Source: Diacronema lutheri
Taxonomy: Eukaryota > Haptophyta > Pavlovophyceae > Pavlovales > Pavlovaceae
DNA: 64,000 nucleotides
Direction of reading: 5' to 3'
Assembly: GCA_019448385.1 (NCBI GenBank)
Contig: JAGTXO010000015.1
Location: 496,001-560,000, forward strand
Below the pieces are notes generated by a model. It ran no database searches and was not told the origin of the DNA. It saw only the letters and a list, made by a program, of their open reading frames with translations. The stretch's first letter is position 1; each line of letters begins with the position of its first letter. Shown one piece after another: positions 8,329 to 64,000 of the stretch. Both the position numbers and the translations under genes were made by a program.

Positions 8329-9366
8329 TCAGATTTCAGGCGCGGACTCATCGCCGCTGAGGGCCCCTCCGCACTCGTCGCACCAGATGTGGCCATTCTC
8401 GTCGGGCGCAGGCAGACCCGCGACAAACATCATGTCGCACGACGGGCAGCAGCGCGCGACGACAGAGCTGCCGATTCCGGCGAGCGCGGGCGACACCACC
8501 TCGGGCATGATTGTCGTGTCGTTCGCGCCCAGAGCCGCAATCACCTTGGCGGGCAACTCGCCCTCGTTCTTGACCTTGGCCTTGGAGATGCGCCCGGTGC
8601 GCGAGGTGACGAGCGCCTTTAGCGGCTGCCTTGAGATCGTCCCGTCCGTCAAAGTGCGAGAGGACAGGCGCGGGGCCAGGCACGCGCGGGGCGGCGTCAG
8701 CTGCGGAGGCCGAGGCTGGCGGCGCCGGCGCGGCGCTAGGCGCGGCGAGTGCGAGCGCAACGGGTTCAGCCGCAGCGGGGTCAGTCGCCAGCGCACTTGC
8801 GGGCGCGGCTGCCTGCGTGCACGCGGCCGAGCTGCTCGTGGCGGCCACGTCCGCCGCGCCCGGCGGTGTCGGGAGCAGGCGAGTGAGGTCCCACTGCAGG
8901 TAGTCCTCGGCGTCCTTGAAGTAGCCCACGTCGGCGTTGAGCCTCTCCATCTTGTGCGGCTTGAACAGCCGTGGCTTGCGCGGCTGCAGAGCCCTCCCTG
9001 CCCGCGCGTGTGGCCGGCCGGCGCGGCCGACAGCGCTCTCCGCAAGCGCGCCGAGCGCGCCGCCTCCGCCGTCTTGAGCACGTCGAGCTCTGCCTTGACG
9101 CGGGCGAGCTCTGCCTCGAGCGCCGCCGCCTGCTGCCCGTCGGCGATCGCCCGCTGCATGAAGGCGAACGCGTCCGACGGTGTTAGCGCCGGGCCCGCCG
9201 CCGCCCGCGTCGACTCCGCCGACCCCGCCGAGCCCGTCGAGAGACGCCCTCGCGGTGCTTGGACGACATCGACCCGCACGGCCTTGCTGGCGGCTGCCTT
9301 GTTGCGCGCGGCACTGCCGAGCTGGCCTCCGAGCCGCCCGCTCGAGCCGCCCATGGACTTGGGCAT
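8329..9366 (-). CDS. TIR-element protein with C-terminal zinc-ribbon-like motif
   Basis: Unrecognised protein carried by the TIR element; the ATG at 9366 is only 42 bp inside the right inverted repeat. The N-terminal part has a short coiled coil (ALEAELARVKAELDVLKTAE). The C-terminus is conserved-looking, with TDGTISRQPLKALVTS and then two CxxC pairs (CCPSC and CDEC, separated by DENGHIW), a plausible zinc ribbon. The central stretch (roughly 8660-9000) reads well only in another frame (FKPHKMERLNADVGYFKD, YLQWDLTRLL), so there are either unresolved introns or two frame changes. No transposase catalytic motif was found, so no function is assigned. Confidence 0.45.
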   Translation of the reverse strand: MPKSMGGSSGRLGGQLGSAARNKAAASKAVRVDVVQAPRGRLSTGSAGSAESTRAAAGPALTPSDAFAFMQRAIADGQQAAALEAELARVKAELDVLKTAEAARSARLRRALSAAPAGHTRGQGGLCSRASHGCSSRTRWRGSTPTWATSRTPRTTCSGTSLACSRHRRARRTWPPRAARPRARRQPRPQVRWRLTPLRLNPLRSHSPRLAPRRRRQPRPPQLTPPRACLAPRLSSRTLTDGTISRQPLKALVTSRTGRISKAKVKNEGELPAKVIAALGANDTTIMPEVVSPALAGIGSSVVARCCPSCDMMFVAGLPAPDENGHIWCDECGGALSGDESAPEI

Positions 9367-9517
9367 CTCCCGCGCAAAAAACACGAACGCGGGCCAACGC
9401 TAACGGCGGGCCAATACTAGCCGAACCCCCCATATTATTCCTTCCTTTTTAGTAAAAACCTCTTTGGATCCCGTTTTCTGTTTTTCTCGTTCCTCTTCCC
9501 TTCCGCGTGTTGTCGGC

Positions 9518-10239
9518 ATGCCGCGCAAGTCACAGAGCACACCGCAGAGGGCAAAGGCAGGCGGCGGCGCCGGCAAGGGTGAGCGCCCGCCGCACGTGCT
9601 CGCAATCGCCAGCCTCGTGCCTGTTACCGCTCACATCGCCCGCCGCGCCGCGCCGCGCCGCCACCTCGGCGATGCTGCGCGCGCAGGCCGTGGCGTCGGC
9701 GGAGTCGCGGGCAACCAGCCGACACCAGCGAAGAAGCACAGGTTTCGCCCAGGCACGGTCGCGCTGCGCGAGATCAGGAAATACCAGCGCTCTACCGACC
9801 TCCTGCTCAGGAAGCTGCCGTTTGCACGATTGGTACGCGCACACACGCGCGCGCACGTCCGCACGCGCGGCGCACGAGCTCCGAGCCTCCGCACGAGCCC
9901 GAGCCTCCTCCGACCTCGGCGCTCGTGCGAGTCTCTTTGGTGCATCTTGGGCTCAACGAGCGCGCTTATTGTCGGGTGCGCACGCGCGATGGTGCGCTCG
10001 CGCAGGTGCGCGAGATCACGCAGACGTACAACTCGATGCCATCCGCAGGTGAGAAGCGATGGCAGGCGGAGGCGCTCATGGCGCTGCAGGAGGCGGCGGA
10101 GGAGTACCTGGTGCACCTCTACGAGGATGCCAATCTCTGTGCAATCCACGCGAAGCGCGTCACAATCTTTGTGAAAGACATTCAGCTCGCTCGCCGGATC
10201 CGAGGCACGCACGGCGGCCGGATTGAATCCCTCCGATAG
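9518..10239 (+). CDS. CENH3: centromeric histone H3 variant (CENP-A/CENH3 candidate)
   Basis: Three exons (9518-9578, 9687-9832, 10006-10239) joined by GT-AG introns give 146 residues, the usual size of an H3 variant. The tail starts [13 protein letters not shown]. The histone fold begins [17 protein letters not shown] and ends [19 protein letters not shown]. Features typical of CENP-A rather than canonical H3 are the divergent tail, the WQA-x-AL-x-ALQEAAE start of helix 2 with Trp where H3 has Phe, and a longer loop 1. From REI to this aromatic residue there are 14 residues here, against 9 in H3 and 11 in human CENP-A. Canonical replication-coupled H3 genes are normally intronless, whereas this one is split. 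It would mark centromeric nucleosomes. Confirmation needs localisation or phylogeny. Confidence 0.82.
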
Positions 10240-10358: not shown

Positions 10359-11855
10359 TCAGGCGATGCGGCCTCTGTTGCACCACGGCCGCTCCGCGTA
10401 CTGCGGCGGAAGCGGGCCGCGAATGAACGCGCGGCCGAGCGTCGGCGGCGGGCGCTTCGTGTGCGGGTGCACCTGCTTTGCGATGAAGGCGTGGAACTCG
10501 CCGAAGAGCGCCGCCCAGTCGGGCTGCGCGCACGGGTCGTTGGGGAAGACGCGTCGCATGAAGCCGACGAGGCGCTGCGGGTCGACGCGCGCGCTTACCG
10601 CGTCGGTCGGCTGCTCAGACTGCGGCCCGCCGGCGCGCGGGTACGCGCCGGGCACGCCGTACGGCACGTGCCGCAGCCCCGCCGAGCGCGCGCACGCCTG
10701 CGAGTAGATTGCGGTATCGCCGTACTTGCCGTCGAGTGCGCCGAGCAGCTCGACAACGGTCGAGCCCTCGCGCATGTACCGGCAGTTGTGCAGCGCGCTT
10801 CCCCACAAGCTGATCAGCACACGCGCGTCGGCGAAGGCCGCCACTTCCTCCGCGTACCCCAGCTTGTGCACGTGCTCCGCGACGAAGCGAAGGTACGGGT
10901 GCTCCCGCGCCGCCCACTCGGCGAGCGCGTCGACCACGCGCTCCTCGGCGTGCACGCTCCGGCGCGTCGGCCAGTCGCGCGAGCGCACGTACAGGATTGT
11001 CATCGGCGGCGCGTCGCCGAGGCCGAGCGCGTCGTGCACGCGCGCGCGGAAGAGCACCTGCTTCTCGGGCGTCAGCCGGGGCGGGCCGACGGCAAAGTTT
11101 GAGAGCAGCGCGACGCGCCCGCGCAGCTCGGCCGGCACGCCGCCGTGCGCGTAGCACGCCTTGCTGAGCGAGATGCAAGAAGGCACCCAGGGTGCGCGCT
11201 CGAGCGTGAAGCCAAAGGCGCGCAGCGCGCGCGCCGAGCCGAAGAGGGCGAGCAGCGCGACGTGCTCCTGCGAACACCGCACCTTGCCTGCGGGCACGAA
11301 GACGCGCAGCTCGCGCGCGCGCGCCGTCTCGGCGCGCACGCGCACGACGGCGCAGTAGAAGGCGTAAATGTAGTCCCAGATGTGTCCGTACCGCAGCGCA
11401 TGGTGCCTGTAGCCCATGAAGCCGATCGCCAACATGCCGTGCTCGCCGGCGGCAGCGTCGAGCGTGCCGTTGAGCTGCGCGGACGGCTTAGAGCACGCCT
11501 CCCTGCCAAAGATTGGCCTCGCCTCGACGACGCGCGCGTACTGGGAGGGGTCGATCACGCTCGTCGTACTCGCGCTGCCCGCCGCCGTTGCATCCGCCGT
11601 TATCGGCCACTCCCACGGCGAGCGCGACGCGCTCTCGCTCCACGCGCGCTGCCGGTACTGCGAGTCGACGGGTGACGTCGGCGCGATGTACTGGCAGCCG
11701 ACCCCAGCGGTGGCCGCGGTGCGGCGCGAGATGGCAGGCTCAGCCGCCGTCCCATTGCGCCCGCCTGCCAGTGGTGCCCCCAGAAGGAGCGCGACGCTGA
11801 TGACGCAGCACACCCCACCGTCCGGGTGGGTAGGCTGGCGCCTGCCAGTCCGCAT
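10359..11855 (-). CDS. GT61-like glycosyltransferase (DUF563)
   Basis: Single-exon gene of 498 residues, a type II Golgi/ER membrane protein. An N-terminal hydrophobic stretch (VCCVISVALLLGAPLAG) is followed by a luminal domain. The C-terminal half carries the GT61/DUF563 signature: MTILYVRSRDWPTRRS, then HKLGYAEEVAAFADARVLIS, LWGSALHNCRYM and EGSTVVELLG, which match the family pattern ending in an HGAgLtN-like loop, here WGSALHN. Families of this type include plant xylosyl/arabinosyl transferases and EGF-domain O-GlcNAc transferase. The donor sugar cannot be predicted. It converges on CENH3 with 119 bp between the stops. Confidence 0.7.
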   Translation of the reverse strand: MRTGRRQPTHPDGGVCCVISVALLLGAPLAGGRNGTAAEPAISRRTAATAGVGCQYIAPTSPVDSQYRQRAWSESASRSPWEWPITADATAAGSASTTSVIDPSQYARVVEARPIFGREACSKPSAQLNGTLDAAAGEHGMLAIGFMGYRHHALRYGHIWDYIYAFYCAVVRVRAETARARELRVFVPAGKVRCSQEHVALLALFGSARALRAFGFTLERAPWVPSCISLSKACYAHGGVPAELRGRVALLSNFAVGPPRLTPEKQVLFRARVHDALGLGDAPPMTILYVRSRDWPTRRSVHAEERVVDALAEWAAREHPYLRFVAEHVHKLGYAEEVAAFADARVLISLWGSALHNCRYMREGSTVVELLGALDGKYGDTAIYSQACARSAGLRHVPYGVPGAYPRAGGPQSEQPTDAVSARVDPQRLVGFMRRVFPNDPCAQPDWAALFGEFHAFIAKQVHPHTKRPPPTLGRAFIRGPLPPQYAERPWCNRGRIA

Positions 11856-11963
11856 CGACTCTATCGCGATTCAAACCTGCTGCCGATGGCGCACCTCATG
11901 AGTCATGAGTCAAGTATCAGTAGTCGTCACGCCTGCCAGAGTGCCAGTGCGCCTCACGAGCCA

Positions 11964-37197: not shown

Positions 37198-37354
37198 GAC
37201 TGCACGCGCACGACGCGCGCGGCCACAATGGCTGCCTTTTTAAAAAGAGGTGGCGCTCAGGGACGCTTCGTCGCTTTTTCCCATACAGCCGCCCTCGCTC
37301 CACCGCCGCGCCGCCGACTGCACCACCGGCCGTACCTCCCCTCCGCCGCCGGCG

Positions 37355-40315
37355 ATGAGCATGCCGCGGCCTAAGGGCAAGGCGCGCCCCGGGGCGAACG
37401 CAGTGGCGGAGAAGACGCTCGCGCTGATGCGTGAAGTAACTGGTCTGCCCATCTTCGGCTCGACGGAGAAGCAGCTGCACAACGCGCTCCGATCGGGCGT
37501 GCTGCTCGTCGCGTACGTCAACAAGCTCTTCCCAAGCCACGGGGTCGACGCGCACCGCGGCGGCATCGAGAACAAGATCCTGGCCAACGACAACATCCAA
37601 AAATTCCTCAAGGCCGCGCGCGCCGCCGGCGTCATCGAGACGCACCTCTTCTCCACCGAGGACATCCACTCGGGCCGCGGGCTCGCGCGCGTGCACGCGT
37701 GCCTTGCGGCGATGCGCTCGCTCGCGAGCGCGCGCAAGCGGCCGCAGGCGGACGGTGACGAGAGCGTGCCGGGGCGGCGGCTGCGTGGGTCGATCACCAC
37801 GCAGGATGGGCTGCCACCGCCGCCGCACGACCTCGTCGAGGACGACGACATTGCGTGGCTGACCGACCGCGGCGCAGGCGCCGAGATTCCGCTCGTCGAG
37901 GCGCGTGCCGTCACGCTCGCGCAGCTCGAGGAGGTGCTCAGCGCGATCCGCGAGCGATGCGCGCGTGGTGGGCAGTGGTGGTGCCTCGAGCAATCCGATG
38001 AGGGCACGCCATCGTGGGAGTCGCGCGCACTCTCCTCATCAGACGTGCACCTTGACCACTTCTTGCACACCGTCGCACGGCCGGCGACGCGCGAGCGCAA
38101 TTGCTCGTTCGTCGAGCTCGTCGCCACGGAGGCGCAGCCGGCGGAGTGGGTGGTGTCGGTGGTATGGGCCGAGCCCGTCGAGACACTCGTCGCCTGCCTC
38201 CGCCGCCACGCCGCCGACCGCGGCTACACGCGCGAGAGCGCCGTGTGGATCGATGCGTTTGCCGGCCGACGAGCCGACTTTGCCGCGCCGCTCCCGCCCG
38301 ACCTGGCCGACGCGCCCTTCTGCCGCGCGGCGGCGGGCGCGCGCGGGATGCTCGTCGTGCTCGACAGCCTCGGCGCGCTCTTTGACCGCGTCGGCTTTGG
38401 CCTCGAGCTCCACGCCGCGCTCACCGCGCCGTCGGACAATTTCTTCACCGATGCGTACGCCGCCTTCGTCGCCGAGCGGCCGCCGAGCGGCGGCGCGGAG
38501 GCGGAGGTGGACGGCGACGGTGGTGGCACCGAGCAGCACAGCGCGCGCGCGGGCGGCGGTGGCGGCGGCGCGACAGAGATGCGCGTTGAGCGGATCACCG
38601 ACGGCGAGCTTGTGTCGGAGGATCTGTACGAGAAGGCGGTGCGCGAGGGCGACTTCTCGCACGACCTCGCCGAGCGCGGCCTGCGCTTTGCGCTCGCGGA
38701 CGCGTCCGCGCTGCCCGCGCGCGCGCGCGACAAGCAGCTGATCCTCGAGCACGTCGCGGCGGGCGTGGGCGCGCACGCGCTCGACGCGACGGTGCGCGCC
38801 ATCTTTTTGCTCGCAAAGCTGCCCGCCATCGCATCGCACGTCGGCGACGACGACGCGCGCGCGACCTTCGACGTGGCGCTGCGCGCGGCGCTTCCGCTCG
38901 CGCGCTGCCGGCGAGTGCGTCTCACGTTTGGCGGCGACGTTGCGGAGGATTGGGTCGCGCAGGTCGTCGTGCCCTCGTTGCCGCCCAGTGTGCGCTCACT
39001 CGCGCTGACTGAGTGTAGCGCACCGTCACTTTGTTCGGCCCTGCGCGCACACCTCCTCGTGCACGGCGCATCGACGCTCACCGCACTCGACCTGTCGTGC
39101 GACGGCATCGGCGCCGACGGCGCCGCGGCGCTCGCCGCGGTGCTTCGGCCCGACTCAGGGAGTGCGCTGCGTACGCTCGAGCTCTTTGGCAACCCGCTCG
39201 GCGACGCCGGCGTCTCGGCGTTGAGCGAGTCGCTTGAGCTTGACCCGCCGCTCCAGTCGTTGGGCCTGCAGGCGGTGGCGATGGCCGACGCGGGCGCGTG
39301 CTCGCTCGCGGCGGCGATCGCGTGCAACACGCAGCTCGTGCAGCTCGTGCTCCGCGGCAACGAGATCGGCGACGAGGGCGCGTACTTCCTCGCCGAGGGG
39401 CTCAAGTGCAACGGCACGCTGCTCGACCTCGACCTGTTCTGCAACGCGATCGAGGAGCGCGGTGCGCAGATGCTCGCGCGCGCGCTGCACGAGCCGACGT
39501 GCGCACTCAACGCGCTCAACCTCGACACGAACGATGTGGGCGATGAGGGCGCGGCCGCGCTCGCCGACGCGCTCAAAGTCAACGCCATGCTGCTCGAGCT
39601 CGACCTCGGCTCGAACCGCGAGCGCAACACGGGCGCGACGTCGCATTTGATCGGTGAGCGCGGTGCCGCGGCCCTCGCCGACGCGCTCGCTTCGAACAGC
39701 ACGCTCACGCGCCTCGACGTCGGTGGCAATGTACTTGGCAACAAGGGGGCGACCTCGCTCTCCGACGCGCTCGGCAGCAACACCGCCCTCCTCTCGCTCG
39801 CGCTCTACTCGAACCGGATTGACGAGCGCGGCGCGAACGCGATCTCGACCGCGCTCACGCTCTCCAAGGCACTGCGCGAGCTGGACATCAACTCGAACCA
39901 GATCGGCGACACGGGCGCGCTGGCCATCGCCGAGGCGCTCGCGACCAACGACGCGCTGCTCAAGCTCAACGTGTCGGGCTGTGCGATCGGAGACGTGGGA
40001 GCTGCCGCCTTCGCGAACGCGCTCAGCGCGAACAGCTGCCTCCTCACGCTCAAGCTCGGGCACAACCACATCGGCGCGGATGGCGCGGCGGCGCTCGCGA
40101 ACGGGCTGCGCATGAACACGACCCTCGTGAAGCTTGGCCTCGGCGAGAACCGTTTTGGCGACGAGGGCGCCGAGGCGCTCGCCGACGCGCTCGAGGCAAA
40201 CACGAGCCTCGCGCGCCTCTTCCTCTGGCACAACGCGCTTTCGGCCGACGCCAAGGAGCGGCTGCGCGCGGCGTGGATGCGCGAGGGCCGTCTGGACGAC
40301 AACTTGGTTGTCTGA
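37355..40315 (+). CDS. calponin-homology plus ribonuclease-inhibitor-type LRR protein
   Basis: Single-exon gene of 986 residues; first in-frame ATG at 37355 (MSMPRPKGKARPGANAV). Residues about 20-125 form a calponin-homology domain (GVLLVAYVNKLFPSHGVD, NDNIQKFLKAARAAGVIETH, LFSTEDIHSGRGLARVHACL). The middle has a region of unknown fold with AVWIDAFAGRRADF and GARGMLVVLDSLGALFDR, resembling signalling modules found beside LRRs in algae. From about residue 560 there are about 13 RI-type LRRs of 28 residues with the pattern L-L-x-L-D-L-x-x-N-x-I-G-D-x-G-A-x-A-L. The protein probably links actin or axonemal structures to a binding scaffold; partners are unknown. Confidence 0.75.
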   Translation: MSMPRPKGKARPGANAVAEKTLALMREVTGLPIFGSTEKQLHNALRSGVLLVAYVNKLFPSHGVDAHRGGIENKILANDNIQKFLKAARAAGVIETHLFSTEDIHSGRGLARVHACLAAMRSLASARKRPQADGDESVPGRRLRGSITTQDGLPPPPHDLVEDDDIAWLTDRGAGAEIPLVEARAVTLAQLEEVLSAIRERCARGGQWWCLEQSDEGTPSWESRALSSSDVHLDHFLHTVARPATRERNCSFVELVATEAQPAEWVVSVVWAEPVETLVACLRRHAADRGYTRESAVWIDAFAGRRADFAAPLPPDLADAPFCRAAAGARGMLVVLDSLGALFDRVGFGLELHAALTAPSDNFFTDAYAAFVAERPPSGGAEAEVDGDGGGTEQHSARAGGGGGGATEMRVERITDGELVSEDLYEKAVREGDFSHDLAERGLRFALADASALPARARDKQLILEHVAAGVGAHALDATVRAIFLLAKLPAIASHVGDDDARATFDVALRAALPLARCRRVRLTFGGDVAEDWVAQVVVPSLPPSVRSLALTECSAPSLCSALRAHLLVHGASTLTALDLSCDGIGADGAAALAAVLRPDSGSALRTLELFGNPLGDAGVSALSESLELDPPLQSLGLQAVAMADAGACSLAAAIACNTQLVQLVLRGNEIGDEGAYFLAEGLKCNGTLLDLDLFCNAIEERGAQMLARALHEPTCALNALNLDTNDVGDEGAAALADALKVNAMLLELDLGSNRERNTGATSHLIGERGAAALADALASNSTLTRLDVGGNVLGNKGATSLSDALGSNTALLSLALYSNRIDERGANAISTALTLSKALRELDINSNQIGDTGALAIAEALATNDALLKLNVSGCAIGDVGAAAFANALSANSCLLTLKLGHNHIGADGAAALANGLRMNTTLVKLGLGENRFGDEGAEALADALEANTSLARLFLWHNALSADAKERLRAAWMREGRLDDNLVV

Positions 40316-49912: not shown

Positions 49913-50245
49913 CCCATCCCCAGCGTCCGGACCGACGACGTATCCTGGAGAACCCCTCAGCTTTTGAAACAGAGATGATGTGGTGGACACCGAGCCCTGA
50001 GAATGATGCTACAATAATCGAGACGAGTTTCTCAAACGGGTTCGTCACTGTTGAACCGGCCAATCGAACGGCCCCCAACGGGGTCTCAAGCACCCCCAGG
50101 GCAGCGCCCCCTTTTATGCACCCCCTTTTAATTCACTTTTATTGTGAGAGCGACGACGGAATGAGAAGCGCGTTTGAAAAAGGGCGGGGAAGAGAGCACG
50201 AGCTCTCACAAGGCAGTTGCCGCTCTGCCGCGCACTCATGCACGA
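49913..50245. promoter_or_regulatory. divergent promoter region, Sel1-MYND and RecD2-like genes
   Basis: 333 bp between two divergent start codons. It is unusually AT-rich for this genome, with three T-rich strings (CCCTTTTATGC, CCCTTTTAATTC and ACTTTTATTG) between about 50109 and 50150 that could serve core-promoter function. No other feature was seen. Confidence 0.35.
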
Positions 50246-50440
50246 ATGGTCGTGAGAACACCCGGGCGGCTGCTCATGCTGCTCGCGTGCACGACAAGCC
50301 CGCTCGCGGCCGCGGGGCGGCGCGTTGCTTCGCGCGGGCTGGCACGCGTGGCGTCGATTGCCCGCTCCTCGGCGGCCGCGATGACGGAATGCGCATCGCC
50401 GTTTGGTGCGCCGCTGCGCGCGCCGCCGTTGGCTCGCGCG

Positions 50441-50480
<40 letters not shown>

Positions 50481-53400
50481 TGGCGCGTGCGCCGCTTGCT
50501 CTCGCGTTGGCGTCGGCGCAGTTGACGGGTACGTTGACGCGCGCCGTCTTCAGCAGCCCCGGCTTCCACGTTTGCTCGATGCGCACGGCCGAGATAAGCG
50601 GCGAGGTGATGCTCGTCTCCAAGTTTGCGCTGCACGAGGCGCTCGGCGGCACGAGCGCGGCGCTCAGGGTGAGCGGGCGGTGGACGCAGCACGCGCGGTA
50701 TGGCTGGCGCGTCGAGGTCGAACGCGCCGAGCCGACCGCGGACCCCTTTGTCCCCGCCAGCTCGCGCTTGCTCGCGTTCGAGCCGGCGCGCGTGCGTACG
50801 CCGGTGGGCGCTCGCGTGCAGCTTGGCGCGCCGGCAAGCGCCCAGCTCGCACACGCCACACCCACGCGGGCGGCGGGGGCAGCTAAGATGCCGGCGTCGG
50901 CCGACGCGGCGCGCGAGGGCCCGCCGCTCGCCGCTGCCGCGCGCGCCGCGCCCGCAGCGCCGCGCGCGCTCGCCGCACCCGCTGCGGCGGCCGCGCCGGC
51001 GGCCGCGCCGACCGTCGTCGCGCCGCCGCGGCTGGACGCGGTTGAGAAGATCACCGGGCGCATCTCGTCGTTTGCGTTCCGATCGGACGACGGCTTTGTG
51101 ATCGCCAAGCTCATCGTCGACACGCCGCAACGCGGCGCGGACGTGGCCGACGGAGGGGCCGTTTCTCTCGACCGCAAGCGCGCGCGCGCGCGCTCCAAGA
51201 CGGTGGGCGTGCGCAGCGTGAGCGCGCTCGCGCACGCCTCGGTGGGCGACAAGCTGACGCTGAGCGGCCACTGGACGCAGCACCCAAAGTTTGGCCGAAC
51301 CTTCGTCGCGGCCGAGTGCGAAAAGCCGCCAGCACCGACCAGCCAGCAGGAGGTACTTGCGCTGCTCTCCTCCGGGGCGATCCGCGGCGTCGGTCCGGTG
51401 CTTGCGAAGCGGATCGTCGACGAGCTGGGCGACGACGTGGTACGCTTGCTGCATAACGACGCGGACACCATCGCGCGCCTCAAGCAGGTGCGCGGCGTCG
51501 GAGGTGCGGCGACGTTTGCAAAAGTATGCGAGCAGCTGACTGCGCACGCACAGACCGATTCACTCATGGCCTTCTGCACAAGCGTCGGGTTGTCAACGGG
51601 CGCGGCGATGCGGCTGCGTCAGCGGCATGGCGCGATGGCCGAGCAGGCTGTGCGCGACAACCCCTTCCGCCTCTTGACCGAGCTGAGCGACGTCTCGTTC
51701 CAGCGCGCGGACATGGTCGCAGTCCGGCTGAGCGTGCCGCTCGATTCGGACTGCCGGCTGCGCGCCGCGCTCGTGCACGCGCTCGACGTGGCGGCGTCGA
51801 GCGCCGGCCACGTCTTCTTGCACGCGCACTCTCTCTTCGCCGCGGCGCACAGCATCGCCGCCGTGCCCTCCGCGCGCTTCGTGCCAACGCACGCGGCGCT
51901 CGCGTCAGCGCTCGCAGCGCTTGTGCGCGACGGCGATCTGTGCGCAGAGCTGCTGCACGCAGATACAACGAACTCGGTTCCCGCCGAGCAGCTGCTCGAG
52001 CTGCGCGCGCCCGACGCGCGCGGCGCTCGCGCCGGCGCGCCTGACGATGGCGCCGGCGATGCACCCGGCGCAGCTCCGGACGCGGCGCGAGCGGCTGCCG
52101 GTGTCAGCTTGAGCGCCGACGAAGTGGCCGTCTACCTGCCCGAGCACTACGACGACGAGCTGCGGCTCTCGCGCGCGATCCGCGCGAGGCTCACCACGCT
52201 GCAGCGCGGCGCGGGCTTTCTGCGCGCCGCGGCCGTCGGCGCTGAGGCCAAGGCCGGACCGAGTGCGGCCGGACCGAGTGCGGCCGGACCGAGTGCGGCC
52301 GGACCGAGTGCGGCCGGACCGAGTGCGGCCGGACCGAGTGCGGCCGCTGCGACCGCCGCCGCGAGCGCAGCCGCTGACGCGGCAGCGTTGCGGCTGACGG
52401 ACGAGCAGATGCGCGCGGTCCGGCTCGCGACGAGCGGCCGCCGCCTTGTCGTGCTGACCGGCGGCCCCGGCACGGGCAAGACGCGCACGGTACAGCACAT
52501 TGTGGGCGCATGGAAGGCGGCAGGCAAGAAGATTGCCCTCGCCTGCCCAACTGCGCGCGGCGCGGCGGTGCTCACCGAGTTGACGGGGCTGCAGGCGTCG
52601 ACGGTCCACCGCCTCCTCGAATTCCAGCCGACCGAGGCCACCTTCTCACGCACTGCGCTCAACACGATCGACGCCGACACGATCGTCGTCGACGAGGCGT
52701 CGATGCTTGACGCGGCGCTCGCCGCGCGCCTGCTCGACGCGCTGCCGCTCCGCTGCACGCTGCTGCTCGTCGGCGACGCGGATCAGCTTCCGTCCGTTGG
52801 CCCGGGCCAGGTGCTCCGCGATCTGCTCAACTGCGCTGCCGTACAGCGCGTGGAGCTCCGACAGGTCTTCCGCTTCGATGGCTCGGGCGAGATCGCGTTG
52901 AACGCGCAGCTCGTCAACGAGGGCAAGATGATGACGCACCTGCAGTACCTGATGCCCGACGAGCTGCCCGAGCCCGCCGAGATGCGCGGCTGCAAGCTGG
53001 TGATGGCGAGCACCGCTGACGACGCGCGCGCCGCCATTTGCGGACCCGTCCTCGCATGGCTCGAGCGCGCGGGTTACGACCTGCATACTGATTTGCAGGT
53101 GCTCTCACCCACCAAGCAGGGCGAGGCCGGATCGCGCGCGCTCAACCGCGACCTGCAGGCGCTGCTCAACCCGCACGCCGCGCGCCACGCGAGAGCGCGC
53201 GCGCCCGGCGCGCGCCCGCCGCCGCCCGTCTTCGTCGGTGACCGCGTCATCCAGCTCGTGAACGATTACGAGGGCGGCGTCTTCAACGGCGACGTGGGCA
53301 CCGTCGTCGAGGCGTGCGACGTGACGCGCAAATTCAAAGTGGCGTTTCGCAGCACCGACGCCGCGAGCACGGAGGGCAACGTCGGCGCGCCCCGTCAGCT

Positions 53401-53830
53401 CGGCTATCTGTACACGGACCTCGACAAGGCGCTCGCCCTCGCGTACGCGCTCACCGTGCACAAGGCGCAGGGCTCCGAGTACCCGGTCGTGATCGTGCCC
53501 GCGCTGCTCGAGCACTCGGCGATGCTCTACCGCAACCTGCTCTACACCGCCATCTCGCGCGCGAAGACGCTGCTCGTCATCGTCGGCTCGACGCGCGCGC
53601 TCGAGGCGTGCGTCGCCGAGGACTCGCGGCTGCGAAGGCTCACCCGGCTGACGCACCTCATCTCGACGGAGACGAGGGCCGTCCATGAGGTCGACGTCGA
53701 CGCGTACGTGGCCCCCGCAGACTTTCCGCCGCCTCTCGCGAGGCAGCCCAGCAAGCGCGATGCAGACGCGCGTCCCGCCGCAGTCAGGCGCACGGGCCGT
53801 CCAGTCGAGCGCGCCGCGGCGCGCGTGTGA
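50246..53830 (+). CDS. RecD2-like superfamily 1 DNA helicase, probably organellar
   Basis: Single-exon gene of 1194 residues; first in-frame ATG at 50246. The N-terminus (MVVRTPGRLLMLLACTTSPL, Arg/Ser-rich, no acids) suggests an organellar presequence. A poly-Gln run of 12 (CAG repeats, 50443-50478) follows. The C-terminal half has an HhH-like region (IRGVGPVLAKRIVDELGDD), Walker A GGPGTGKTRT near residue 738, Walker B VVDEASMLD near 815, motif III LLVGDADQLPSVGPG, and the late ALTVHKAQGSEYPVV and YTAISRAK blocks, all diagnostic of bacterial RecD2. A 15-bp unit encoding GPSAA is tandemly repeated six times (about 52256-52345) just before the helicase core. Its role would be recombinational repair of plastid or mitochondrial DNA. 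Confidence 0.87.
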
Positions 53831-53995
53831 CTCGCGCGGCCCGTGCGGAGAATACACGTTGTCAAGCGCCCATGCTCCTCGCATTCGGATCTCAAACGAT
53901 TTTTGACCCCTCCCTCATGCGAGCGCTATAGCAAAATGGGCGCGCACGCGCAATTTGCGCGCAATCAGCGCTGGAGCTCTTGAGCAGTCGGCAGC

Positions 53996-55585
53996 TCATT
54001 CCTTGGCGGGCGCCACGTACTCTGGGTTCTTCTTCAAGATGATGAAGCCCTCGAGCGTCGAGTGGAGCGGCAGGTACTCGTCGGTCGCGAGCTCGGCGCG
54101 GTCCTCGTGCCCGAGCAGCACGGGCGTCTGGTGCGTCTGGAAGCCCGTGATCGACTTTGGCTTCCCGGCGAGGCCCACAATGTCGACGGCGGTGCCCACG
54201 CGCACCGAGACGGGCAACGGCTTGAGCTCCTGCCGCACGCGAAGGCGCGAACGAATCGGGCGCGCGCGGCGGGCGGGCGGGTGGGCGGGCGGCGCGCGCG
54301 AGCGATGGGTGCGGCGCGCGCAGCTGCGGGGCCCCAGCCGCGCCCGCCCAACGGCGACGCACCTCGTCGACGGTGATGAGCATTCGTGGGGCGGCTGCTG
54401 CGATGAGCACGTAAAGCAGGTAATGGTGCTTGCCAAGGATGAGACCCTTGAAGTCGAGCAGCACGTGCATCAGCGTGACGAGCGCCGCGCCCGCGTTCGG
54501 GCAGAAGACCGCGCGGCCTGAGTGGTACGCGTTGAAGCCGAGGAGCCCCTTGCCCGCGTGCAGCAAGCCCTGCGCCACCCGGACTGCGAAAAGCAAGCCC
54601 GCCTCTTTTGAATAGTACGACGCGAGCGCGCGCAGGTTGTTCGCGACGCGCGAGTTGTTCGTGCCCGCGCCGACGAGGCCCATCGCAAGGATCGAGTTGG
54701 TCGCCGTCGGCACGTCCGGGTCGTGCGAGAGCTTGCTGAGCAGATCGACCGCCTCCTGCTTGGGCACGGACGCGTGCAGGAGCCCGACCGCGAGCGGGAC
54801 GCCGCGCCGCGCGGACACGTCGCCGTACTGCAGCATGTGGCCAAAGGAGCGGTGCGCCATCTGCGCGCCAAACTCCTCGCCCATCGCCACGAGCGCGATG
54901 CCAAACGTCGCCACCGTCTGCGCGTCGAAGAGCTTGTCCTCCGCCTTCACAGCCGCCGTGCTCGCGCCACCGCCCGCGCTGGCGGCGCCCGCGCCCGCGC
55001 CGGCGGCAGCCGCGCCGGCCGCGGGCGGCGGCGCCGCGGCGGGCGCGCCCTCGGCGGCGCCTTCCACGGCCGTGAGCGGCGCGGGCGCGTCGGGGTGCTC
55101 TCCCGTCATGGCCATGAGCCGCTGCACCTTGAGCACGTTGCCCGAGCCCATGTAGGCGCATGTCTCGAGAGTGCGCTCGCAGTACTCGCCTATGCGGCCG
55201 GGGATCGTCTTGGAGAGCTCGAGGGTCACGTCGACCGCGCTCTGCTTGCCCAGGTAAAGCAATCCGGCGCCCACGCACAAGAAGCGCGCGAGGCTCTGTG
55301 CCTCGAGGGCCGACTGCTCGCGTTCCATCAGCGCGGCCATCACGCACTGGCACACGTCCTCGTGGCACGAGCCGACAAAGACGAGCCCGAGCGCGAGCGC
55401 GGCGAAGCTCGCGACGTCGAGGGGCGCGTCCGTGTCGGCGACGATCGGCAGCAGCATCTCGAGCACCTGCGCACACACGAGCGCGCGGGTGGCGAGGGCG
55501 GCGCGCGCGCTGAGCGTCGGCGCGGCGCGGTGCGGTGCGGCGCACGCGCGCGCGTGGCGGGGGCAGGGGCGCAAGGGGGAGGGCA

Positions 55586-55631
<46 letters not shown>

Positions 55632-56283
55632 AAGACCGCTGCGCGCGCGAATCGATCACTCCATGTGGTGGTGTCGGTACGGGTCCGATATCAGCTTTCG
55701 TTTGTGGTGCTCATCTCGATGGCGCGCACGCGTGGAGCAGCCGCGCGCCGCGCGCAGCACCGCGCGCGGTCCCCGGAGCGCGCGCGCCGCCCACTGCACG
55801 CGGCGCGCGCAGGGCGTTGGCGGCGGCGGCGCGCGCGACACGCCTCCTCCTTCTGCGAGCCGACGTAGGCCATGCCGAGACCAAAGATGGCGGCGATCTT
55901 CATCATCGCGTTGGACGACTCGAGGTGCTCGGCGAGCAAAGCGAGAGCCGGGTCGCACTCGTTGCGCACGCCCGTGTTGAGCAGGCCGACGGCGAGGAGG
56001 GCACCTGCCTTGATGTAGTTGTCCGTCGAGTAGAGGAACTTGTCAATCTGCGCCAAAGGAGCGCAGGTGGTAGGAGGGAGGAGAGGGGGGGGGGTCCGGG
56101 CAGGGGTCCGGCGCTCAGAATGCGCGCTCAACGCGGCTCGCGGCGACGTGTGGCGTGTGACGAGCGCCTGTGACGCGCTCGTGCGGTAGAAGGGTGCAAG
56201 GGGAAACAGCATGGTGCAAGGGGGGGGGCAGAAGGGTGCAAGGGGCAGCGCATGGCGCAGGGGAAACCATGGCGCAAGGGGGG

Positions 56284-61886: not shown

Positions 61887-62268
61887 TGAGATGAGGCCGG
61901 GCGCGCTTCGCCGGACGCCCTGTGCGCCGTCGTGACAGGCTGTGCGCCACTCTGCGTTTGGCCCACAGTTGCGCCGACGTCCGGCGGCATCAGCGCGTGA
62001 GCCGTGAAGAACCCATGTCAGAGCCACTCACCCTCGGCCGCTCAGACTACATTCTACGTGTGCACGGCGTGTGCTTCCAATCGTGTGCAGAGCCTGGAAG
62101 GAGGGGCCCTCGGCCAGCGCAACAGCTGCAGATCGTTGGTTCGTCGGGCCGAGCTGGGCACTCGGCGCGCTGATGCGCGCGTGCATGGCACGCCGCACGC
62201 GGCTCGGCATGCGGCCAGATCACAGCGACGCGCTGAGCTGCGCGCGGCCAAAGTACCCGCAGTGCTCA
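61887..62268. other. convergent intergenic region, nothing recognised
   Basis: These 382 bp lie between the stop codons of the small coiled-coil gene and the acyl-CoA dehydrogenase. No open frame with recognisable domains, RNA gene or repeat was seen; the region presumably holds both 3' untranslated regions. Confidence 0.45.
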
Positions 62269-64000
62269 TCACGCAGCGGCGACTGCAACGCGCTCGGCCC
62301 CGCCGTACGGCGAGATGAGCGCGGGCCGCACGTAGTCGGGCTGCGCGGCCTCGCGGCCGAGCTTGTCGAACGAGTCCACCTGCGCACGGCCGGTGGCGGG
62401 TTAGCGTGAGGAGTGTGGCGAGTACGGGCAGCGCGGCGAGTAACGGGCGCACAGAGGCGCGTACGCGCTGCGCTGGCGCAGCGCGATCCGTCGCGTGGCC
62501 GGCGCAGCGCCGTGCCTGAATGATCTCTTCGCGCATCGCCTCGGCCTCGTTGATGACCGCCTGCTCGGCGCTGGTGGGCGCGCGCTTGGCCTTGCGCACG
62601 GCGGCAAGGATCGCGTCCGCCTCGAGGCACTGGACCGCACAAGGGCAGCGGGGCAAAGACCGGCCGCACGCCGGCGCGCGCGGCGGTGAGTCGGGGTCCA
62701 AGTGCGGCAGCGGGCGCCGCGCACGTGCCGCTCGGCAACGGCTGGCGCGCAACGCGCGGATCGGTCCGCGCGACCTCGGGCATATGACGTACCTTTGGGA
62801 GCGCGCGGTTGATGAGCGCGATGCGGTCGTTCGGGTCGTTGCGCGAGATGAAGATGTTGGGCGAGAGGAGCTTGCGCACCTGCGAGTCCGTCGTGATCAG
62901 CGCGCTCACCTGCTGGTTGAGCCGGTCGGATGGCATTGCGTAACTGCCGCCGAGCGGGAAGGTGAGCGCGCGCATGAGCAGCCCGATGCCAGGCACGGGG
63001 AAGTTGGCTTGGATGGCGAAGAGCGACTGCTGCGTCTCGTACAGCAGCTCGCTCATCGCGTGGTCGAGCACCTGGCGCGTGCGGCGCCGTCGGCGAGCGC
63101 GCACGCGCGGGCCGCGTGTGGGCGTGCGCACCAGGGGCACACCCGAGGGGGGCGCACGTGCCGTCCTCGCGGCCGCCGCGCGCGACGCGGCGCGCGCCTT
63201 GTCCGAGTCGGCGCAGTGGTGCGTCTTGTGGTAGTGGAGCATGGCGTAGCCCGAGTACAGGTTGCCGAGCACGTCAGCAAAGCGGCCGGAGAGCATCTCG
63301 GCGAACTTGAGCTTGCCGCCGAGCACGAGCGACAGATCGGCAGAGATGGCAAACGCGCGCGCCAGCCGGCCGAGCTGCACCTCGTGGTATGCGGCCACGT
63401 CGGCGCCCTTGCCAAAGGGGGCGCGCAGCGCGGTGGCGAGCGCGCCGCCCACCGCGCCGACCGCGTTGGTCGCCGCATGCCCGACGAGCCGCGCGAGGTG
63501 CTGGTTGAAGCCACGCATGTCATCGCCCTTGTTGATCGACTCGATCAACCCGAGCAGGTTTGGGTGCGAGCGGTTGAGGCCCTGGCCAAAGACGATGAGG
63601 GAGCGCGTGAGAATGTTCGCGCCTTCGACGGTGATCCCGATCGGGATCTGCTGGTACGAGTTGCCCATGAAGTTGGCCTTGCCCTTGCAGATGCCCGCGC
63701 CGCCAAGGATGTCCATCGCTTGGTTGACCACCGAGCGCATCCGCGCGGTCATCTGGTACTTCATGATCGCGCTGAGGACGGGCGGCTGCTCGTGCGCGTT
63801 GAGGATGCCGTTCATCAGCGCCTGGCACGCGTTCATCCGGTACGTGCTCGATGCGATCGCCGCAAGCTGCTCCTGCACGCCCTCGAGCTCGGCGATGGGC
63901 ACCTTGAACTGCTTGCGCACGCGCGCGTACGCGCCGACGGCGTTGGACGCGGTCTGCGCGGCGCCGACGGAGAGCGCGGGGAGCGAGATCCCGCGACCCT
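62269..64000 (-). CDS. acyl-CoA dehydrogenase, FadE/DUF1974 type, 3' part
   Basis: Partial at the window end. Exons seen are >64000-63198, 63071-62793, 62629-62516 and 62379-62269. Two of the three introns are GC-AG (AAG|GCGCGC and CAG|GCACGG) and one is GT-AG. The protein contains GISLPALSVGAAQTASNAVG, SVVNQAMDILGGAGICKG and IGITVEGANILTRSLIVFGQ, the flavin and active-site region of acyl-CoA dehydrogenases, followed by the DUF1974 domain typical of bacterial FadE (HAMSELLYETQQSLFAIQAN, then GLLMRALTFPLGGSYAMPSD). It catalyses the first step of fatty-acid beta-oxidation, probably in mitochondria or peroxisomes. The bacterial-type architecture in a spliced gene suggests an old transfer. Confidence 0.88.

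Follow-up and report, generated by a model that had tools for sequence, protein, structure and literature searches.

CENP-A targeting in other organisms lies in the loop 1/alpha-2 region. Centromeric H3 variants (CENH3s) have been described as combining an extended loop 1 and a divergent N-terminal tail with the loss of Q, F and T at the sites that appear in print as 69, 85 and 118 (PMC4359364, in the available text). The monophyly of CENH3 is considered uncertain, and the class has been proposed as a functional one (PMC3380720, available text). In other organisms, KNL2 and Mis18 act in CENH3 loading (PMC9210943, available text). In the green alga Picochlorum SENEW3, the putative CENH3 is a single divergent H3 that carries an insertion and key substitutions and whose gene has two introns, a finding of the same kind as the present one; compared by description, the canonical H3 genes of Picochlorum are reported as intronless, while those of the present genome have one intron (PMC11092101, available text). 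For haptophytes, no paper on CENH3 was found among the results listed by searches of the open-licence PubMed Central literature, which is no proof of absence. Neither 'centromer' nor 'histone' occurs in the main text of the Diacronema lutheri genome paper (PMC8379373), and the main text of PMC5579357, taken without its figures and data sets, contains neither 'haptophy' nor 'Emiliania'. H3s of Emiliania and Prymnesium appear in a tree together with some CENH3s in PMC4751559, the available part of which names no haptophyte CENH3.

The window analysed here is a 64,000-nucleotide stretch of the D. lutheri genome, with a GC content of about 70%, and it encodes an H3 variant at 9518-10239 on the forward strand. 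Diacronema is a haptophyte, and the term red lineage applies to its plastid only; the first-pass annotation, which had spoken of a red-lineage alga, was right about the plastid and not about the host. The 146-aa product matches the Pfam Histone family (PF00125) with E = 2.4e-41, far past chance level, and aligns in register with H3s, and an H3-type histone fold is present, as had been claimed. A CENP-T_C match of the same protein, at 24.5 bits below the cut-off of 28.1, was put down to general histone-fold likeness. The gene is very probably the one for the centromeric H3 variant of this cell (CENH3/CENP-A). This identity, proposed in the first-pass annotation and upheld here from sequence comparison, is supported by the length of loop 1, the substitutions Q68A, F84W and T107A, the divergent tail, the side of the tree on which the candidate falls, the presence of partner genes, and the lack of a match to any other divergent H3. 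The features of the gene are as follows.

9518..9578, forward strand: exon 1, start of the N-terminal tail (20 residues), located by a candidate-query match over residues 1-23
9579..9686, forward strand: putative intron 1, GTGAGC...GCAG, 108 nt, with GT-AG ends, in frame and open
9687..9832, forward strand: exon 2, remaining tail, alpha-N and most of alpha-1, ending ...LPFARL, placed by homology
9833..10005, forward strand: intron 2, GTACGC...GCAG, 173 nt, inside the histone fold, with GT-AG ends, needed for the H3 frame
10006..10239, forward strand: exon 3, VREI, the 14-residue extended loop 1, Trp84, alpha-2, alpha-3, a short C-terminal extension and the stop

This three-exon model would give the product of 146 aa, intron 1 being plausible and putative. 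Intron 2 is required by homology because the H3 alignment resumes in register across it (RL followed by VREI) and because its length of 173 nt is not divisible by 3. The 108 nt of intron 1 are a multiple of 3 with zero in-frame stops, a stretch that would be open by chance with a probability of about 0.71 at this base composition; a retained-intron form of 182 aa may therefore exist. Alternative acceptors of intron 1 end at 9704 and 9728 and keep the frame, with exon 2 then running from 9705 or 9729, and the product length by acceptor choice is 132, 140, 146 or 182 aa. In C-over-G skew, intron 1 (0.20) resembles the tail introns of the H3 genes (0.12-0.17) and differs from the exons (-0.12 to 0.01). 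Third-position GC, at 0.78 for intron 1 versus 0.78-0.80 for the exons, does not separate it from them. Modelled by itself with AlphaFold, exon 3 formed a single long helix, which is uninformative.

The first-pass annotation had given the gene two introns and contrasted it in this with replication-coupled H3. The intron within the fold stands, as it is demanded by homology, while the other is plausible only; moreover, all three canonical H3 genes of the genome (L021, L022 and L023) are interrupted after codon 20 by an intron. The possession of introns does not by itself distinguish the candidate, and it is the fold-internal intron that is peculiar to it relative to these canonical genes. Putative intron 1 starts after 61 coding nt and the canonical tail intron after 60. 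This proximity, together with the high identity of the candidate to H3, would fit a protein that is a CENH3 by function, having arisen in the lineage from its own H3, and that is not orthologous to other CENH3s. The two intron phases differ by one, however, and intron 1 is itself putative. Such an origin is very unlikely, and it overlaps with the main reading, as it concerns where the gene came from and not its role.

Between REI and the aromatic residue at position 84, the candidate has 14 residues, compared with 9 in H3s (8/8) and 11 in human CENP-A. Its loop 1 is therefore extended relative to H3, and the earlier counts of five residues more than H3 and three more than human CENP-A proved correct. 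The same interval measures 11 residues in the chicken and maize CENH3s, 10 in rice, 12 in Cse4 and 15 in Cnp1, and 11 in Arabidopsis CENH3 when counted from the printed sequence, where the automatic pattern had matched a wrong start. The candidate loop is long, yet it is no record, that of Cnp1 being longer. In the alignment, the candidate has A, T, W and A where H3 has Q68, A75, F84 and T107, and the Trp reported at the start of helix 2, as in CENP-A, was located at H3 position 84. Only scattered residues of the tail align with the H3 tail, in agreement with its description as divergent, and the length of the tail depends on intron 1.

Printed position 118 was taken as 108, which is T107 with the Met counted, as in the available text of PMC11092101. 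With this numbering the candidate lacks Q, F and T at 68, 84 and 107 (Q68A, F84W, T107A), in line with the diagnostics given in the available text of PMC4359364; taken literally, position 118 is a T kept both in the candidate and in human CENP-A. T107 is kept in two of the seven reference CENH3s, Cnp1 and Cse4. Q76 is changed in 7/7 reference CENH3s by alignment and is kept in the candidate, which consequently lacks the change at site 77 (Q76 if Met is counted), one of three sites in PMC11092101 and, in its available text, not given as a required feature.

These residues were also scored over 68 H3-invariant columns, a CENH3-divergent column being an H3-invariant column that is also divergent in at least 70% of CENH3s. 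The candidate departs from H3 at 7 of 11 CENH3-divergent columns and at 4 of the 57 remaining ones; Fisher's test gives p = 9e-5, on an assumption of column independence that does not hold. It differs at columns 68, 75, 84 and 133, the full set of scored H3-invariant columns at which no reference CENH3 that has a residue keeps the one of H3. Under the same scoring, departures at CENH3-divergent columns number 1/12 in H3.Y, 0/11 in yeast H3 and 1/12 in Tetrahymena H3.

Over the fold, the candidate is 71-74% identical to human H3.1 and H3.3, Arabidopsis and Tetrahymena H3 and the genome's own H3, 65-66% identical to yeast H3 and H3.Y, and 54-67% identical to the CENH3s compared, which is lower than to most H3s. 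That identity is highest to canonical H3 would suit a non-centromeric H3 variant with a longer loop 1, such as a replacement, stress or life-stage form, the true CENH3 being missing from the assembly or lying in an unrecognised gene. The joint occurrence of a loop extension with the loss of Q68, F84 and T107 corresponds, with 118 taken as 108, to the published CENH3 diagnostics (PMC4359364, available text) and argues against such a variant, as does human H3.Y, which is non-centromeric and has a 9-residue loop and no enrichment at CENH3-divergent columns. A non-centromeric role is rated as highly improbable.

Among individual CENH3s, fission yeast Cnp1 (CENP-A; PDB chain 9lrv) shares with the candidate an H3-like fold, Trp84, KYQRSTDLL in alpha-1 and a long loop 1, at 66.7% fold identity; it differs in a loop 1 of 15 versus 14 residues, in keeping T107 and in an unrelated tail. 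Rice CENH3, compared through a provisional sequence, shares REIT where loop 1 starts and RW where it ends, as well as EAL and LQEAAE in alpha-2 (65.3% identity), but its loop 1 has 10 residues versus 14 and its tail is of the plant type. Human CENP-A (PDB chain 3nqu) has Trp84 and WQA.AL.ALQEAAE..LVHL.EDA in alpha-2 in common with the candidate at 60% identity, whereas its loop 1 has 11 residues and its alpha-N region has diverged; the candidate loop 1 is without the RG pair of human CENP-A. A search for relatives by the candidate protein pattern confirmed 0/13 pattern matches in viral_contigs and 0/96 in genome_contigs, a prokaryotic collection, and a CENH3 alignment search of viral_contigs gave 3 distant loci out of 104 pattern matches, at 34-35% identity. 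The candidate is an ordinary member of a family present in most eukaryotes.

A tree was built from 16 sequences and 100 columns, comprising the candidate, 7 CENH3s, none of them from an alga or another haptophyte, and 8 H3s; several reference rows were provisional sequences. The candidate fell on the CENH3 side, apart from the 8 H3s, with support of 89/93, a value that the tree program did not star. On the full columns, a sister relationship to the genome's own H3, which a CENH3 derived within the lineage would predict, was rejected (p = 0.0007), and a constraint that keeps the candidate outside the CENH3s fell short of rejection (p = 0.093). When columns 68, 75 and 84 were removed, the grouping of candidate and CENH3s left the best tree but was not rejected (p = 0.263), and the own H3 as sister was no longer rejected either (p = 0.08). 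Removal of the loop 1 columns 76-84 left the CENH3-side grouping in place at 60/76; the candidate then grouped with CENP-A of the two vertebrates (82/78), and a sister position of the own H3 was not rejected (p = 0.058). The grouping with H3.3-type variants that the first-pass annotation had named as contrary evidence was not seen in this tree. The tree is consistent with CENH3 and mildly supportive of it, short of proof, with moderate support that rests on few diagnostic columns. In trees, some divergent H3s are not clearly set apart from cenH3s (PMC3380720, available text), a point that also leaves some room for a non-centromeric variant.

The rest of the histone complement was searched in 43,492,796 bases on 103 contigs. 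The published assembly of strain NIVA-4/92 has 43,502,671 bp on 103 contigs, a GC content of 73.25% and a BUSCO completeness of 80.8% (PMC8379373, available text), a completeness that would allow a true CENH3 to be missing and in this respect favours a non-centromeric role for the candidate. The Histone-family profile search gave at least 17 matches (20/20 first-look candidates were scored, and counts for large families are lower bounds). With the candidate as query, 9 matches were obtained, namely its own three exons, three canonical H3 genes with E values of about 2e-38, and three weak matches with E values of 0.05 or above. The canonical genes encode one and the same protein, whose fold shows 98% identity with human H3.1. 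No second divergent H3 was found among the Histone-family and candidate-query matches in the genome, though KNL2-like, Mis18-like and Ndc80 genes are present, which again speaks against a non-centromeric variant and for the candidate as the CENH3. Separately, contig C30 has a canonical H3 gene paired with a divergently oriented second core-histone match twice over, at 290.3-291.3 kb and again at 307.8-308.9 kb; these closely similar pairs, about 17.6 kb apart, are probably a duplication.

One SANTA-domain match was found in the genome (E = 1.6e-10, 42.6 bits), and downstream of it in the same open frame lies a Myb match of 24.0 bits, just below the cut-off of 24.4. SANTA with SANT/Myb is the KNL2 architecture in some organisms (PMC9210943, available text). 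Within this KNL2-like gene, at 6791-7841 of L019 (contig C33, about 295.8-296.8 kb), there is a minisatellite in which a 19-bp unit recurs about 57 times with 93% matches; it sits between the SANTA and Myb parts, the frame stays open, and it may be an intron. The single Yippee-Mis18 match, on contig C6 (E = 1.6e-9, 41.6 bits, cut-off 26.6), is taken as Mis18, not Yippee, because of its C-terminal extension. For Ndc80, one match lies above the cut-off (E = 3.2e-37). With these KNL2-like, Mis18-like and Ndc80 genes, the genome can be expected to have a CENH3 system of the conventional kind. In this system, the candidate would pair with H4 and take the place of H3 in centromeric nucleosomes, its loop 1/alpha-2 region would be the part read by the loading machinery, loading would proceed via the KNL2/M18BP1-like and Mis18-like proteins, whose genes lie elsewhere in the genome, and on the nucleosome so marked a kinetochore would be built with Ndc80 at its end. 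Centromere localisation, the loading route and expression of the candidate are points that we infer.

Exon-by-exon searches of the genome gave no match for the CENP-C cupin (controls gave matches in 8/14 genomes, none above the cut-off), for Scm3/HJURP (no match in controls either) or for NASP SHNi-TPR. These results are weak evidence of absence because the families are fast-evolving, the genes are split by introns and the named controls are prokaryotic. It is conceivable, at a low probability, that the haptophyte CENH3 is a lineage-specific H3 derivative whose loop 1 and Trp84 converged on those of CENP-A, and that a KNL2-Mis18 system loads it without a recognisable Scm3/HJURP chaperone. The general picture of CENH3 is unchanged by the candidate. 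A CENH3 gene makes centromeres directly accessible to ChIP-seq mapping in a haptophyte whose genome is compact and contiguous, and would be useful for building artificial chromosomes.

The candidate is flanked in the window by two ORFs, and a RecD2/YrrC-like frame lies further along.

8332-9399, reverse strand: ORF without a Pfam match, left of the candidate
10362-11870, reverse strand: glycosyltransferase-61-like ORF, right of the candidate
50165-53827, forward strand: RecD2/YrrC-like frame with the domains AAA_30, HHH_RecD2, OB_YrrC, SH3_13 and UvrD_C_2

The region between the left-hand ORF and the candidate may be a shared divergent promoter, and neither neighbouring ORF bears on centromeres as far as seen. 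The RecD2/YrrC-like frame is an open frame of 1221 aa with helicase domains of bacterial type in a eukaryotic genome. At 37244-40312 on the forward strand, an open frame of 1023 aa combines a calponin-homology domain match with leucine-rich repeats, and one at 53895-55655 on the reverse strand contains proteasome/cyclosome repeats (PC_rep, E = 1.3e-12). An acyl-CoA dehydrogenase whose C-terminal domain is labelled 'bacterial type' (ACDH_C) lies at the window edge, at 62223-63998 on the reverse strand.
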